This document shows, piece after piece, positions 10,736 through 19,240 of a stretch of DNA of 64,000 nt. The DNA comes from Bacilli bacterium (GTDB lineage: Bacteria; Bacillota_I; Bacilli_A; Izemoplasmatales; Hujiaoplasmataceae): the NCBI GenBank assembly GCA_018399755.1, contig JAGYOE010000004.1, positions 1-64,000 of the forward strand, read 5' to 3'. Both the position numbers and the translations under genes were made by a program. Position 1 is the stretch's first letter. Each line of letters opens with the position of its first letter. The notes below the pieces were generated by a model that worked only from the letters and a program-made list of their open reading frames with translations, made no database searches and was not told the origin of the DNA.

Positions 10736-11557
10736 CTAAAACTTTAAAGATATATCTAATGATTTATAAGAATGAGTTAGCGCACCTACACTAATAAAAT
10801 CTACGCCAGTTTGACAAACGGATTTAATTCTATTTACCGTCATATTTCCACTGGCTTCTAATAACTTTATATTTTTATTTAGTTCAACAGCTTTAACCAT
10901 AGTTTCATTATCCATATTATCTAGCATAATGATATCACAATCGCTTTTTAAAGCTGTTTTTAAATCAGCTAATGTTTCTACTTCAACTTCAATTTGAACC
11001 GCTTTTCCAACATTTTTTCTAACAATATCTACAGCTTGAATAATAGAATCAGCAGCTTTTAAATGGTTATCTTTTAACATTACCATTTCTGATAGATTCA
11101 TTCTATGGTTTGTTCCGCCGCCATCCCTAACTGCTTTTTTTTCTAAAAACCTTAATAAGGGCGTAGTTTTTCTAGTATCTAATATTTTAGTTTTATAGCC
11201 TTTTGTTTCATCAACAAAAGCCTTTGTCAATGTTGCTATACCAGACATGCGTTGTAAAAAATTTAATGCTACTCTCTCTGCTTTTAATATTGATTTTGTT
11301 AACCCACTTACTTCAGCTATTAAATCACCTTTATTTACTATTTCACTATCATCTTTATAAATAGTGAAATCAATATTACTATCAATTTCTAAAAAAGTAA
11401 GTTTAGCAATATTAATCCCAGAAATTACTCCCGCTTCTTTAGCAATAAACTTAGCAATAGTTTTTTCTTTAGAAAACAAATATTCACTAGAAATATCCTT
11501 TTTAGGAATGTCTTCTTTTAAAGCTTCTTTTATGATTTTAGATATTTTTTTATCCAT
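10736..11557 (-). CDS. nadC: Nicotinate-nucleotide pyrophosphorylase (quinolinate phosphoribosyltransferase)
   Basis: Converts quinolinate and PRPP to nicotinate mononucleotide with loss of CO2. The 273-residue protein has AERVALNFLQRMSGIAT, KILDTRKTTPLLR (PRPP and quinolinate binding), HRMNLSEMVMLKDNHL and DIIMLDNM, as expected. The ATG at 11557 is used because AGGTGA lies just upstream; the in-frame GTG at 11566 is part of that site. No nadA or nadB is adjacent, so the source of quinolinate is not visible here. It overlaps the 3' end of the upstream Fic-like gene by 8 bp, which suggests coupling. Confidence 0.93.
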   Translation of the reverse strand: MDKKISKIIKEALKEDIPKKDISSEYLFSKEKTIAKFIAKEAGVISGINIAKLTFLEIDSNIDFTIYKDDSEIVNKGDLIAEVSGLTKSILKAERVALNFLQRMSGIATLTKAFVDETKGYKTKILDTRKTTPLLRFLEKKAVRDGGGTNHRMNLSEMVMLKDNHLKAADSIIQAVDIVRKNVGKAVQIEVEVETLADLKTALKSDCDIIMLDNMDNETMVKAVELNKNIKLLEASGNMTVNRIKSVCQTGVDFISVGALTHSYKSLDISLKF

Positions 11558-12632
11558 TTTTATCACCTAAATTTAACTTCATTTGCCCTTGATAGTCTTC
11601 TTCTTCAACTATTTTTACCCACTTAGCACTTCTGCCCTTGCCTAAAGCTCTAATTTTATTATCTTCTTGCATTCTTTTTAAAGTGCGATTTATTGTAGAG
11701 TCACTAATTAAAGGATGTTGTTTTCTAATATCATTTTTTGAAAAAGTTTTGGGCATTTTAAGGATAGTATTTTCGATATAATCTGATTTAGAAATGCTTA
11801 AATTCTCATCATAACGATAATCTCTCGCTAAAGAAGCTAAATCATCATACATTTGTTTATATATTTTAACAAAAAATTTAGTTAATGGCATTACTTCAGC
11901 TAGTCCTTCTTCCCATTGATAACTAGATTGATGTAGTAATTTTAAATATTCATCCTTTTCAAAAACTAGTTTTCCATAGAAACTAACAAAATAACTTGCC
12001 TTTAAATCATTTTCAATCATTAGGATATAAAAAATTAGTGTTCCTACTAATTCATTATAATCAAAATCAAAAACTTTCATATTAATGAAATCAATTAAAA
12101 AGTTAACATATAGAAATACTGGTTCATATTTATTTTTCTTAATAACACTATTAACTTCTTCTAGAAATTTTTCAAAAACTTCACGCATAGATTTTACATC
12201 AGTATTAAAAAGCGATTTCTTTTTTGTTATTCTCCGATATTTTGGAATTGGAAAAACGTCTTTAAATAATAAATTAATCAGTTCTCTAATTTCAACTAAT
12301 TGAAGATTAAAACGATCATAACTTTGATAATGAATTTGTCTAAAAATTTCTAAAATATTCTTATATAATTGTTCTGATTTATTATTTGGAGTTGATGATT
12401 TTAAAGCTAAACTATCAAAACGACTACGTTTAATTGGTTTAAAATCATTAAGAAACAATTGATAAAAATAACGCGCATTATCTTCTGCAGTTTTTCGTTT
12501 ATAAAACTCCAAACTCTTAGAAAAAAAACCATAATAAAAATCATTTTTGCCAATTTCTTTATACAATTTATTCATTTTATAAAAAACATCATGTGGAATT
12601 GCGGTTTTTTCAATTGTCTTAATACAATTCAT
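11550..12632 (-). CDS. Fic-fold-like protein lacking the catalytic motif, with C-terminal winged helix
   Basis: The 360-residue protein is not a textbook family member. Its second half follows the order of a Fic protein: a helical region with a LINLLFKDVFPIPKYRR segment, a helix pair FLYVNFLIDFINM, then KVFDFDYNELVGTLIFYILM where Fic enzymes have the AMPylation motif HPFxxGNGR followed by a hydrophobic helix, then a YLKLLHQSSYQWEEG region. The His, Gly-Asn-Gly and Arg of the catalytic loop are all absent. Residues about 280-345 (FSKNDIRKQHPLISDSTINRTLKRMQ) look like the winged helix that ends many Fic proteins. It is therefore probably a catalytically dead Fic relative, perhaps a regulator. 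It overlaps nadC and lies in the same transcription unit. Confidence 0.5.
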   Translation of the reverse strand: MNCIKTIEKTAIPHDVFYKMNKLYKEIGKNDFYYGFFSKSLEFYKRKTAEDNARYFYQLFLNDFKPIKRSRFDSLALKSSTPNNKSEQLYKNILEIFRQIHYQSYDRFNLQLVEIRELINLLFKDVFPIPKYRRITKKKSLFNTDVKSMREVFEKFLEEVNSVIKKNKYEPVFLYVNFLIDFINMKVFDFDYNELVGTLIFYILMIENDLKASYFVSFYGKLVFEKDEYLKLLHQSSYQWEEGLAEVMPLTKFFVKIYKQMYDDLASLARDYRYDENLSISKSDYIENTILKMPKTFSKNDIRKQHPLISDSTINRTLKRMQEDNKIRALGKGRSAKWVKIVEEEDYQGQMKLNLGDKNG

Positions 12633-12643
12633 TGTAACACCTA

Positions 12644-13915
12644 CTATTCATCTAAAAGAATTGATTTAATTAAACTAATAAATTCATTATCGATATCAGA
12701 AAAATTATCACTGTAAAACTGATCTGTTAATAAATCAGCATATATAACACTATCACCTTGAATGTCAAATCCTAAATCATCTTCACTTAGATAATAAAAA
12801 CTATTTAAAATTTCTGATTCAAATAACTTGCCAGATATTGTTGAAATATTATTAGCTTCAAAATTTGCAATAATATTTGTATTTATTGTTAAATTATTAT
12901 CTATATCAGCTACCCAATTTTCGCCGACTAAAAGGCCTATATAACTAGCTAAAACACCATCAAAACGATCTTCAGCAACCTTTTCTATATCAGTAGTTAC
13001 AAAGTTAGTTTTTAATATAACATTTTGATTATAACCAATTAATCCTCCAAGTGATAAATCTTCCTTATTATTAATTACAAATTCAGCCTTAACAATATTT
13101 TGATATACAAGATTTTTATTAACTGATAAAGATGCTTCAATAGTTTTAACATCATATAAAAAGTTATGGCCAATAAGTCCACCGATAAAACTTGAAGAAT
13201 CAGCTTTATTTACAGTAACAGCTAAGTCATTTATAATATTATTGTTTAATTTAACATTATAGGCTTTACCAACTAAACCTCCAATATAGATAATATCTTC
13301 TGCAGAAACTATAATAGTCCCTGAAGCATTATTATCACTTAAAATGTTTGGTTTAAACTCTTTAGCAATTACTAAGTCATCTAACTTAGTTTGTGCATTA
13401 CCTACTAATAAACCTAGATAAAGATTAGAATTACTAGAATCTATATCTATATTACCAGAAACAAAAACATTGGTAATTTTCCCAGAACTAAAACCAGCAA
13501 GACCACCTACATTTGCTAAGAAATCAGTTGTGAAGTTAATATCAAAATTAACGATGTTTAAGTTCTCAACATTTCCCTCTAAATTTCCAAAAAGCCCATT
13601 ATAACCATCGTAATTTTGGGTTATTTTTAAATTTGATATTGTATAGTCATTACCTCGAAAATTACCTCTAAAAGGTCTCTGATATGTTCCTATAGGTGTC
13701 CATTCTTCAAAATTTAAATCAATATCATTTTCTAATTCATAAGATTTATTAATATCCATTGATTTTAAATCCTCTACTGTAGAAATGCCAATATAATTAC
13801 TAACATCAACATTAACAGTAGTTTCTTCTTCTTCACCTAAAAAATTACAACCGGTTAATAATATAATACTTAAAAATAAAATTAGTAAACTTAGTTTTTT
13901 CATAAACTTCCTCAT
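12644..13915 (-). CDS. Lipoprotein with GLUG-type repeats
   Basis: The 423-residue protein begins with a lipoprotein signal peptide (basic MRKFMKKLS, hydrophobic core, lipobox LLTGC with the acylated Cys at about residue 23). It then contains several repeats built on GLFGNLEG/VGGLAGFSSG/IGGLIGHNF/LGGLIGYNQN, each following an N-x-I or V-N stretch. This is the GLUG-like beta-helical repeat of cell-surface and adhesin-like proteins. It is presumably anchored to the outer face of the membrane. The start ATG overlaps the last base of parC's stop region, so it is directly downstream of parC and may be read from the same message. No enzymatic motif is visible. Confidence 0.65.
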   Translation of the reverse strand: MRKFMKKLSLLILFLSIILLTGCNFLGEEEETTVNVDVSNYIGISTVEDLKSMDINKSYELENDIDLNFEEWTPIGTYQRPFRGNFRGNDYTISNLKITQNYDGYNGLFGNLEGNVENLNIVNFDINFTTDFLANVGGLAGFSSGKITNVFVSGNIDIDSSNSNLYLGLLVGNAQTKLDDLVIAKEFKPNILSDNNASGTIIVSAEDIIYIGGLVGKAYNVKLNNNIINDLAVTVNKADSSSFIGGLIGHNFLYDVKTIEASLSVNKNLVYQNIVKAEFVINNKEDLSLGGLIGYNQNVILKTNFVTTDIEKVAEDRFDGVLASYIGLLVGENWVADIDNNLTINTNIIANFEANNISTISGKLFESEILNSFYYLSEDDLGFDIQGDSVIYADLLTDQFYSDNFSDIDNEFISLIKSILLDE

Positions 13916-16563
13916 TAAAATAACCTTTGTTGAATAATGTCATCTTCATCTTCATCTTCATCTTCATCTTCGTCTTCTTCATCATTTTGGTCTTCTACTG
14001 CATCTGAATCAAAATCATCTGAACTAGAGATAATTTTCTCTAATTCATTAATAACATCATCATTATTATTATCTATTTCATCTTCGTCTTCATCAACTAA
14101 ATTACTTAAGATATTTATCGTTTCTTTATAATTAACTTTATCAATCATCACTAATTCAGGTTTATCGCCTTTATTGAAATAAGGTATACCATTTTCATAA
14201 CGATCTGGCTTAATTTCATTTCCAGGTATTAAAATAGTTTTTTCTTTAGCGATTAAACGTATATTAATATAGTCTTTTAATCTAAAAATATTTTCTGCAT
14301 TCATAGAAACAACCTTATAAGGATTAGATTTAATTTTTTTAAAATAACGTTTTCCTTTAGCTGGTCGATGCGAACAATCTATATTAATGCTGAATTCTCT
14401 TTTTAAGCCACCTCGGTTAGTTAGTATTAATAATTCATCTTTATTGATATTAGTAGTATATTTTGCGCCTATTAGTTTATCTTTTCGTAAATTAATACCC
14501 TTTACTCCCTTAGCCATTAAAGACTGAATCGGAATTTCATCTAAATCATATTTAACTACAAAGCCATTTTCACTGACCATTGTTACTGAAGAATCATATG
14601 GCTCTTCTATGTCAACTGAAACAAACTGATTAATCTTTGATGTAGACAATACATTAAAGGTTTTATTAATCCTTGTCTTATTAAATTCTTCTAAACAAAC
14701 CCTTTTAATTTGTCCTTCTTCATTAGCAACTAAAATATTACGTTTATCATCAAATTCATCAATCACAATATAATCAATAACTTTTTCTTTTTGATTTAAA
14801 GTAGCATAATTACCAATATAATCCCCCAAATCCTTCCATTTAGCATCTAAAATCTTGTGAACAGGTAAGTTAATAAAATTACCAAAATTAGTAAACAATA
14901 ATAAAGTATCTCTAGTATTTACATCTGAACTTTTTAGAACTTGATCATTGTCCTTTAAACCAGTAGAACCTTGAGTCGCTTGAAAAGACTTCATAGAAGA
15001 ACGTTTTATATAACCGTCTTTTGAAATCACTAGCATAACGTTTTCATTTTGAATTAATTCCTGTTCATCAATTTCAATTTTTTTAATTTCATCTTTAATA
15101 ATGGTTTTTCGAGAAGAAGGATATTTTTTAATCATTTCCTGAATTTCATCGGTAATAACTTTTTCTAGTTCATTTTCATTATTTAAAATTTTAGTTAGAC
15201 TTTTAATAGCCTTTGTTAAACGCAAAGATTCTTCTTTCATATCATTTACATCTGTAGAAGATAAACGATATAATCTTAAAGAAACGATTGCATCAGCTTG
15301 TTCTTGAGTAAATTTGAATTTTTCAACTAATTTATCTTGAGCATCTTTTTTACCGCTAGAAGCACGAATAATCTTAATTACTTCATCTAAAACTGAAACC
15401 ATTTTTAAAAAACCTAAAACAATATGTTTTCTTTTTTCATATCGTTGTAGTTCAAAATTAGATCTATTTCTAATAACTTCTTTTTGATGCAGAATATATT
15501 CCGATAATATCTCATCTAAAGATAGTAATCTTGGACTTCTTTGACTTATAGCTACCATATTGTAATTATAATTTTTAGCTAAATCAGTATTTTTAAATAA
15601 ATAAGCAAGGATTACATCTGAAGCTATTTCTTTTTTTATTTTAATTTCAATTCTAATTCCTTCACGATCAGAAATATCATTTATTTCTGAAATACCATCT
15701 ATTTTTTTCTTTAAACTAATATCATTTATTTTTCTAACCAATTCAGCCTTATTTACATCATAAGGTAATTCAGTAATAATTAAGGAAGTGTCTTTAACTT
15801 CAACTTTTGCTTTTACAACTATTTTACCTTTTCCGGTTTTAAAAGCTTGTTCAATTTGATTAACCCCTTCAACAATTCCACCGGTTGGAAAATCTGGGCC
15901 TTTAATAAATTTTAATAAATCAGTTAAACTAGCATCTTTGTTTTCTAATTTATATACTACTGCTTTTAATACTTCACAAAGATTGTGTGGTGGTATGCTA
16001 GTTGCATATCCAGTTGCCATACCACTTCCACCATTTACTAATAAATTAGGAAATTTAGCTGGTAAGACTACTGGTTCTAGTTCATAATCATCAAAGTTAG
16101 GAATAAAATTTACTGTTTTTTTATCAATATCTTTTAATAAAGCTTCAGAAAAAGGTGTTAATCTCGCCTCTGTATAACGCATAGCTGCGGCAGGGTCATT
16201 ATCAATCGAACCATTATTACCGTGCATATCTATTAAAAGATTTCTCATCTTCCAACTTTGTGACATTCTAACCATAGCTTCATAAACACTAGAATCACCA
16301 TGAGGATGATATTTACCAATTACTTCGCCAACAATTCTAGCTGATTTTTTAAACGGTTTATCTGAACCCATACCTAGTTCATTCATCGCAAATAATATTC
16401 TTCTTTGTACAGGTTTTAAACCATCTCTTACATCAGGTAGAGCTCTATCTTGAATAATATATTTTGAATACCTACCGAATCTTTCTCCGACTATTTCTTC
16501 AAGGTTCATTGGGATAATATTTTCAACATATTCATCGAGTTTTTTCTTAAGTGATTTTGCCAT
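13915..16563 (-). CDS. parC: DNA topoisomerase IV subunit A, with an acidic C-terminal tail
   Basis: Catalytic subunit that cuts and rejoins DNA during decatenation. The 882-residue protein has Tyr130 in [10 protein letters not shown] as the predicted catalytic tyrosine, the quinolone-resistance region [12 protein letters not shown] (residues 86-97) with Ser91 and Glu95 unaltered, and a six-blade C-terminal domain. ParC rather than GyrA is chosen because the gene pairs with parE and faces plsY, as in Bacillus. The last 50 or so residues are an Asp/Glu-rich run encoded by tandem GATGAA-type codons (13940-13985), ending IIQQRLF. Start and stop overlap neighbours by one base on each side. Confidence 0.9.
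13940..13985 (-). repeat. Hexanucleotide microsatellite coding the ParC acidic tail
   Basis: The plus strand reads as about seven tandem copies of a TCATCT-like hexamer in the 3' end of parC, decoded on the minus strand as alternating Asp and Glu. Six-base units keep the frame when the copy number changes. Confidence 0.8.
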
Positions 16564-18503
16564 TAATTATCCTCCTCAATAATAAAGTCATCTTCATTAG
16601 CAAAAGAAACATAATTATCAATCCATTCTTTTCTTGGCTCTACTTTATCGCCCATAAGAACAGATATTCTTTGATCTGCTTCAGCTAAACTATCAATTGT
16701 TACTTGTATTAAAGATCTAGTTTTTGGATCCATAGTTGTTTCCCATAATTGAGTTGAATTCATCTCACCAAGACCTTTATATCTTTGAATCGAATATTTT
16801 TTATATTTTTTTGCTATTCTTTCACGATCTTCTTCAGTCCATGCGTATTCATATTTTTTTCCAGAATTAGCGCTTATTTTATATAATGGTGGTAAAGCTA
16901 TATATAGTCTTCCTTCTTCAATTAATTCAGGCATATATCTAAAGAAAAAAGTAATTAAAAGCACTTGAATATGAGCACCATCAGTATCAGCATCAGTCAT
17001 AATTATTACTTTATTATAATTAGATTTTTTTACTTTAAAATCACTACCAATTCCTGCGCCAATAGTAGAAATTATTGTAGAAATTTCTTCATTTTTAAAA
17101 ACATCTTCCATTTTTTGTTTCTCTGCATTTATAACCTTACCTCTTAAAGGCAATATCGCTTGAAACTTTCTATCTCTACCTTGTTTAGCTGAACCACCTG
17201 CTGAATCACCCTCAACTAAAAAAAGTTCTTTAATTGAAGAATCTTTTGAACTTGCAGGTGCTAATTTACCAGAAAGTATAGTTTCTTTTTTCTTGATTTT
17301 CTTAACTAATCTTGCATCTTCTCTAGCTTTTCTAGCAGCTTCCCAAGCATTTCTTGCCTTAACAGCCTTAGAAACAAGTAATTGAGATACTTGTGGATTT
17401 TCAGTTAAATATGCATTTAGCTTTTCTAAAGCTAGGGCTTCAACTGCTGGTCTTGCTTCAGCTGTACCTAGTTTATTCTTAGTTTGTCCTTCAAATTGCA
17501 ATAAATTTTCTGGTATTCTAATTGAAATAATAGCAGTCAAACCTTCTCTTACATGAGTTCCTTCTAATGAAGAATCTCTTTCCTTAATTATGTTCATTTT
17601 TCGGCCATATTCATTAAAACTTTTTGTAAAAGCTGATTTAAATCCCGTTTCGTGAGTTCCTCCATCTTTTGTTCTAACATTATTTACAAAAGAAATAATA
17701 TTTTCAGAATAAGCTTTAGTATATTGAAATGCTACTTCAACTTCAATATCATTTGTTTTTCCTTGAAAATATACAGGTTTGTTTAATACCGCTTTCCCTT
17801 TATTAACATAAGCAGCATATTCATGAATTCCTTTATTAAATTGGAAAGTTTGTTTGTCTTTTGTTCTATGATCAATTACTTCCATTTTTAAACCTTTTAT
17901 TAAAAAAGCATTTTCTCTTACTCTTTCTTCAACCATTTTATAATTAAATAGCGTTGTTGAAAAAATCTTTTGATCTGGTTTAAACCATACTTCAGTTCCA
18001 CTTTTCTTTGTAGTCCCTACTTCTGTTAATGTTTTAACTGGTCTTCCACCATTTTCAAAACGCATCTCATAAATTTTATTATCGCGATATACTTTTACTT
18101 CTAAAAATTCTGATAACGCATTTACAACTGAAGCTCCTACTCCATGTAACCCACCAGAAACTTTATAAGCACCATCAGCTGAAAACTTACCTCCTGCGTG
18201 TAGTTTAGTGAAAATTAGTTCTACACCAGTCAACCCTGAATCATGCATATCAACAGGCATACCTCTACCATCATCACTTACTATAATAGAATTATCTTCA
18301 TTTATTTCTACTTTTATATAACTACCAAAACCTGCAAGAGCTTCATCTATTGAATTATCAATAATCTCCCAAACCAAATGATGTAAACCTCTAGTATCCG
18401 TAGAGCCTATATACATTGCAGGCCTTTTTCTAACAGCTTCTAATCCTTCGAGAATTTGTAATGATTTTGCATCATATTTTATTGTTTTTGCGCTCATATC
18501 CAT
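16563..18503 (-). CDS. parE: DNA topoisomerase IV subunit B
   Basis: ATPase subunit of topoisomerase IV. The 646-residue protein has the GHKL ATP-binding elements [22 protein letters not shown] and [14 protein letters not shown]. Further on it has the TOPRIM motifs [15 protein letters not shown] and DADTDGAHI, and the C-terminal [10 protein letters not shown]. It lacks the long insertion of gamma-proteobacterial GyrB. The divergent gene is plsY, the arrangement of Bacillus plsY-parE-parC, which supports the ParE assignment. A TATAAT-like element upstream (minus strand, near 18530) could be its -10. Confidence 0.92.
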
Positions 18504-18570
18504 TACTCCTTTTTGTCTTACCCTTTATTATATCAAATTTTACTAATTATTTCTTTATTTTTATGCAAAT

Positions 18571-18582
18571 TTTTGGTATAAT
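18571..18582 (+). promoter_or_regulatory. Extended -10 promoter element of plsY
   Basis: TTGGTATAAT (with a TGn extension before TATAAT at 18577-18582) lies 25 bp before the plsY start. No good -35 is visible, which is usual for extended -10 promoters. Confidence 0.55.
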
Positions 18583-18607
18583 TTAAATCAGTTTAGCGAG
18601 GTAAATT

Positions 18608-19240
18608 ATGGAATATCTTTTCATTGTATTAGCATATATTATTGGGGCAATCCCTTTCTCATATTTATTTGGAAAAAAATTTAAAAATACCGATTTAAGA
18701 AAACATGGCAGCGGCAATCTAGGAACAACAAACGCCTTTCGGGTTTTAGGAAAAACCATTGGAGTTTTAGTTCTATTTTTAGATATAATTAAAAGCGGTT
18801 TGCTGGTTTTAATTATTAGACATAATCCTACTATATTTGGAATTGAAATGCTACACCCTCTATATTATGGATTGGCATCGGTTGTAGGACATATATTCCC
18901 AGTTTGGATGAGGTTTAAAGGCGGAAAAGGAGTTGCTTCTAGTTTTGGGCTCTTAGTTGTTTATGCCCCTTATGTAGGATTGGGCCTATTACCATTTTTT
19001 ATTCTTACAGCTCATTTCACAAAATATATTTCAATCGCTTCAACTGCAACGGCTTTAATGACTTTAATTGTTGTTACAATTCTTAATTTAACAATCGGTC
19101 CACCTTATTATGACTTGCCTTTAGTTACAGTTACAACCATAGTAACTTTATTAATATTTTACCGACATAAAGAAAATTTTATTAAAATTATTAATGGTAA
19201 TGAAAATAAATCATATCTCTTTAAAAAGAAAAACAAATAA
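18608..19240 (+). CDS. plsY: Glycerol-3-phosphate acyltransferase PlsY
   Basis: Membrane enzyme that transfers the acyl group of acyl-phosphate to glycerol-3-phosphate, the first step of phospholipid synthesis. The 210-residue protein has several membrane helices and the three loops of the family: the first with HGSGNLGTTNAFRVLG, the second with FPVWMRFKGGKGVAS, and a third basic loop with FYRHKENFIKII. It is divergent from parE. The acpP gene elsewhere in the window supplies the acyl carrier of the same pathway. Confidence 0.95.
   Translation: MEYLFIVLAYIIGAIPFSYLFGKKFKNTDLRKHGSGNLGTTNAFRVLGKTIGVLVLFLDIIKSGLLVLIIRHNPTIFGIEMLHPLYYGLASVVGHIFPVWMRFKGGKGVASSFGLLVVYAPYVGLGLLPFFILTAHFTKYISIASTATALMTLIVVTILNLTIGPPYYDLPLVTVTTIVTLLIFYRHKENFIKIINGNENKSYLFKKKNK

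Follow-up and report, generated by a model that had tools for sequence, protein, structure and literature searches.

Fic proteins are known as enzymes, and several of them attack topoisomerases. The ParC partners MukB and NstA are not, to our knowledge, Fic proteins, and we know of no Fic-fold protein, Coxiella burnetii Fic2 included, that carries a clamp-binding motif of the kind represented by QLVLGL in DinB and QLSLPL in Hda, both of which are C-terminal β-clamp-binding motifs. Fic enzymes of Pseudomonas, Yersinia and S. aureus AMPylate ParE/GrlB at a conserved tyrosine that is important for ATP binding, and Fic-1, FicY, Sa1560 and VbhT AMPylate GyrB or ParE/GrlB (PMC7479194). For C. burnetii Fic2 (8cil), (de)AMPylation is reported to be induced by DNA binding (PMC10628234). 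MukB and NstA, which were described in other bacteria, place or inhibit topoisomerase IV (PMC3950513, PMC4470285). The published consensus for binding to the β sliding clamp is QLxLF, usually located at the C-terminus, as in transposases that bear this motif (PMC4549789).

Here we analyse pseudo-Fic, a protein encoded in a window of 64,000 nucleotides from contig JAGYOE010000004.1 of the Izemoplasmatales assembly GCA_018399755.1. Among named bacteria, Candidatus Izimaplasma and other wall-less organisms are closest to this genome. With Fic-1, FicY, Sa1560 and VbhT it shares the Fic fold, here predicted, and a proposed functional tie to topoisomerase IV; whereas those proteins are active on ParE, pseudo-Fic appears to have lost catalysis and its gene lies in the parE-parC neighbourhood. 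The fold is likewise common to pseudo-Fic and C. burnetii Fic2, but the latter is enzymatically active. In its presumed action pseudo-Fic may be likened to MukB and NstA, and, as in the clamp-binding transposases, its flexible end holds a short QLxLF or QLxLxL peptide. A survey of the open-access literature, mostly by title and abstract, found neither a Fic protein with a clamp motif nor a clamp motif in ParC, and in the same literature we found no protein of Fic fold described as a tether between topoisomerase IV and the clamp.

Table 1. Features of the pseudo-Fic locus, with positions counted from the first nucleotide of the window.
Feature	Position	Strand	Remarks
nadC	10736..11566	(-)	QRPTase_N and QRPTase_C domains; overlaps the 3' end of the pseudo-Fic gene
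Pseudo-Fic protein, 360 aa	11550..12632	(-)	Intact ORF with ATG start; stop codon 11550-11552
Clamp-binding-like motif QMKLNL, residues 350-355	11568..11585	(-)	In a tail that is modelled with low confidence and is probably disordered
Winged helix, residues 282-341 (KSDYIENT...GKGRSAKWVKI)	11610..11789	(-)	From secondary structure; most conserved part
Place of HPFxxGNGR, residues 186-195, reads KVFDFDYNEL	12048..12077	(-)	From alignment with 20 motif-keeping relatives and 8uqu
GLUG-repeat lipoprotein, between parC and pseudo-Fic	12644..13915	(-)	In the window's own family (f1) only
parC	13915..16563	(-)	C-terminus DDIIQQRLF, a QxxLF-type tail
parE	16563..18503	(-)	Retains the tyrosine AMPylated by Fic toxins

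Results

Predicted fold and ancestry of pseudo-Fic

The AlphaFold2 model of pseudo-Fic, calculated from an alignment of 72 orthologues, has a mean pLDDT of 89.2 and a pTM of 0.80, and pLDDT values drop below 50 in the last 15 residues only. The top Foldseek match of this model is 8uqu, a Fic family protein from Bordetella bronchiseptica (TM 0.65 by query and 0.91 by target, E 8e-9), followed by Dde_2494, SoFic and Coxiella Fic2. A phmmer search of the PDB with the window protein retrieved 8uqu at an E-value of 1.4e-11, and for the family profile this entry was the sole sequence match in the PDB, covering nearly the full length (E 1.6e-30). Together, the fold predictions and the profile match establish the Fic fold as far as prediction can, and they argue that pseudo-Fic belongs to the Fic/Fido fold proteins by descent. 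The likeness to 8uqu includes the end of the winged helix, where GKGR(S/G)AKW matches; however, 8uqu has the motif HPFPDGNGR, which is absent in the window protein and its relatives, many of which have an added tail motif.

Scans of the window protein against Pfam and NCBIfam returned no family match of weight, and Pfam Fic is touched by only 13 of 72 relatives. Hence, routine annotation misses the Fic ancestry of the window protein, and proteins of this kind probably bear the label hypothetical. A viral fold library contained nothing that matched pseudo-Fic at an E-value of 0.001 or better.

Loss of the active site

Since KVFDFDYNEL stands in aligned register at the place of HPFxxGNGR, the erosion of the motif is real. 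It is common to the whole orthologous family and not a lesion of the window gene: in the alignment of 123 family members GNGR occurs in none and the His in 2, the usual remnant being xPFxxxNE. The part that was lost is the nucleotide-handling motif, and as the active-site signature of Fic AMP-transferases, HPFx(D/E)GN(G/K)R, is not found in the family, we do not class pseudo-Fic as an AMPylase. By comparison, all 20 related proteins from the same class (L076-L080 and L233-L247) retain HPFxxGNGR, one of them with Q for H. These active relatives are homologous to pseudo-Fic along the chain and similar in length, but differ from it in the intact motif, in a variable winged helix and in the lack of the clamp-like tail; Pfam Fic matches both of those that were scanned (L077 and L078), and no parC was seen nearby wherever the flank was visible. 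In a tree built with the motif columns left out, the dead family and the active relatives form separate groups with an SH-aLRT of 100, for which a single early loss that was then inherited is the simplest reading. The window genome encodes two more Fic proteins elsewhere, one with HPFEDGNGR (L161:1060-2208) and a short one with YPFVDANGR (L162:1339-2073).

Family range and conservation

The 123 pseudo-Fic homologues form a single clade in the Izemoplasmatales, the Acholeplasmataceae and relatives, a group of wall-less bacteria, the majority of the homologues being from incomplete metagenome assemblies. In the dead family, mean pairwise identity amounts to 61% in the winged helix and 32% at the motif place, whereas the corresponding values for the active relatives are 38% in the winged helix and 86% in the motif, which is their most conserved part. 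In the dead family, the winged helix has thus taken the place of the active site as the focus of conservation. Measured against the nearest relative, dN/dS comes to about 0.09 over the whole gene and to about 0.03 over the winged helix; these values are rough, as dS is high, and they indicate that the dead Fic body is still under purifying selection.

The original prediction had described the helical order and C-terminal winged helix of Fic proteins around a replaced HPFxxGNGR. Both parts of this description stand, the first by the AlphaFold2 model and the Foldseek matches, the second by the aligned register of KVFDFDYNEL. Its further notion of a dead AMPylase fold with a DNA-binding end finds support in the predicted structure, the alignment and the pattern of conservation.

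Genomic linkage to parE-parC

In the window, parE, parC, the GLUG-repeat lipoprotein gene, pseudo-Fic, nadC, recJ, apt and relA follow each other on the same strand with short gaps or overlaps, the identities of apt and relA being assigned by reading of the sequence. In a scan for promoters and terminators, matches were no commoner than in shuffles. The GLUG-repeat lipoprotein is poorly conserved, with identities of 28-60%.

Upstream of pseudo-Fic, parC is located at a distance of ≤2 kb in 97 of the 115 informative loci, which are those with enough upstream sequence, and at 2-6.5 kb in 4; it is unseen in 14, in at least one of which (L142) parE is in place and parC is apparently broken. In families f2, f3 and f18 parC is directly upstream, while the GLUG lipoprotein separates the two genes in the window's family and one gene-sized stretch does so in f12 and f16. 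Pseudo-Fic thus displays a conserved genomic linkage to parE-parC, as would be expected of a topoisomerase IV accessory protein. In f7 and part of f22, parC was not seen near pseudo-Fic. The f22 proteins at L197, L198, L213, L215 and L227 end in QMSLF, QVSLF or QLTLF tails, with parC unseen within about 4-6 kb upstream.

The overlap between the pseudo-Fic and nadC genes, on which the original prediction had built a coupling to NAD synthesis, does exist in the window: it measures 17 nt if nadC begins at its GTG codon and about 8 nt if it begins at the ATG three codons in. The coupling itself is unsupported. Of 120 homologues for which the downstream sequence is long enough, 36 have nadC next to them, all of these lying in the window's family or in part of one further family; the other 84, including two of the four congeners (G001 = L022 and G004 = L024), do not. 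The conserved neighbour in the relatives is parE-parC. We therefore rejected linkage to nadC as a functional signal.

The plsY-parE intergenic region (18503-18608) and its counterparts contain divergent extended -10 boxes arranged as an inverted repeat, ATTATACCA...TGGTATAAT. This arrangement is conserved across two families, and in much of f3 ACACTACAAA lies between the boxes.

A clamp-like peptide at the C-terminus

Behind a variable linker, pseudo-Fic ends in a short motif that reads QMKLNL in the window protein, QLxLxL in most Izemoplasmatales and, at the same place in distant members, EQLSLF, QQLTLF, QLDIF, QLNIF, QLELF or QMSLF. A QLxLF or QLxLxL peptide in a flexible end, as is characteristic of β-clamp-binding proteins, is therefore present, with tail pLDDT values below 50. 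Using a permissive pattern that was drawn up after the first tails had been seen, we found the pentamer or hexamer motif in 84 of 118 family tails versus 2.6 expected (mean of shuffled tails, maximum 9). It occurs in 47 of 56 pseudo-Fic proteins compared with 5 of 499 other proteins of the same regions, three of these five being ParC, and in 0 of the 20 active Fic relatives. The motif is missing in families f2 and f10 and in most f18 members; as f2 and f18 are still linked to parC, the clamp part is not universal. Conversely, binding to the clamp may have nothing to do with topoisomerase IV, given that f22 proteins keep QMSLF-type tails where parC is not seen nearby. The Y-family polymerase of the window genome contains QVSLF.

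ParC proteins encoded at pseudo-Fic loci often terminate in QQRLF, QQTLF, QVSLF, QPTLF or QLSLEV. The tails QQRLF, QQTLF, QVSLF and QPTLF of Izemoplasmatales ParC (L021-L075 and L130-L160) resemble the β-clamp-binding motif. In 14 genomes of the class that have no pseudo-Fic match, ParC tails mostly lack it, the clearest exception being L255 (EQLALF). Motif-bearing tails were counted in both proteins in 58 cases, in pseudo-Fic only in 15, in ParC only in 8 and in neither in 21 (Fisher p about 2e-6), but this co-occurrence follows lineage, and a test of independent pairs is not significant, there being too few independent changes.

Discussion

Taken together, linkage to parC, lost catalysis and conserved elements for binding suggest that pseudo-Fic works with topoisomerase IV at the replication clamp. 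We propose, with a probability of about 0.45, that it is a Fic-derived, catalytically dead adaptor by which topoisomerase IV is coupled to DNA and to the sliding clamp. In an ancestor of these wall-less bacteria, a Fic enzyme akin to 8uqu would have been stripped of its catalytic motif yet retained as an adaptor, its gene staying with those of topoisomerase IV. Its Fic body may still hold ParE or ParC without modifying it, much as Fic enzymes elsewhere recognise ParE; target recognition is argued here by analogy, as the ParE-targeting Fic proteins are not known to fall into this subclass. The winged helix would hold DNA and the C-terminal QLxLxL or QLxLF peptide would dock on the β sliding clamp, whereby topoisomerase IV might be placed or restrained at the replication fork or in its wake, the region in which links between sister chromosomes arise. 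We infer every one of these binding events, as well as the effect on topoisomerase IV, from what is observed: the predicted fold, the motif loss, purifying selection, the shift in conservation, the linkage to parE-parC and the clamp-like tail. More doubtful is the stricter form of the proposal, in which, across a broad wall-less lineage, a non-catalytic tether forms a physical connection between topoisomerase IV and the replication clamp. Probably, pseudo-Fic works as a chromosome-untangling adaptor rather than by regulating NAD synthesis.

An unlikely alternative is that pseudo-Fic binds DNA and associates with the clamp but plays no part in topoisomerase IV function, serving instead some other process at the fork such as repair or initiation control, with parC as an old chance neighbour. 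The canonical tails of the f22 proteins that have no parC nearby would suit such a protein, but the parC linkage survives in several families although what lies in between varies (nothing, the GLUG lipoprotein or, in A. laidlawii for example, a single long gene), whereas nadC and other flanks change. It is improbable that the winged helix serves a transcriptional (auto)regulator of the parE-parC operon, even though it is the most conserved part of the protein and the repressor MecI is among the weak Foldseek matches: an operator search of the plsY-parE region upstream of parE yielded only the conserved divergent promoter elements and no clear separate operator, and this function would leave the clamp-like tail unexplained.

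Quite improbable, too, is an immunity decoy, in which the dead Fic fold would cover the tyrosine region of ParE and so protect topoisomerase IV against AMPylation by active Fic proteins of the same genomes. Fic enzymes are known to target ParE (PMC7479194), the tyrosine concerned is conserved, also in the window ParE, and two further Fic proteins are encoded in the same genome; yet it is the winged helix and the C-terminal peptide, rather than the Fic body, that are most strongly conserved. For a nucleotide-sensing regulator of NAD synthesis, as originally envisaged, the overlap with nadC and the adjacency in a minority of relatives could be cited, but with nadC elsewhere in most homologues, even in congeners, this function is scarcely credible.

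The adaptor proposed here would make of this widespread family an enzyme seemingly turned resident partner, its catalysis gone and its DNA-binding end and clamp peptide conserved. If true, it would show a toxin-type enzyme becoming a housekeeping part and would answer, in a form that can be tested, the question of what ties topoisomerase IV to the replication fork in bacteria other than E. coli. A. laidlawii places the family within experimental reach: the gene is very probably present there (L223:6001-7062), with parE, parC, one long uridine-kinase-like gene, so named from reading its sequence, and pseudo-Fic in a row, and the encoded protein has the C-terminal peptide GGRQLDIFQFTD.
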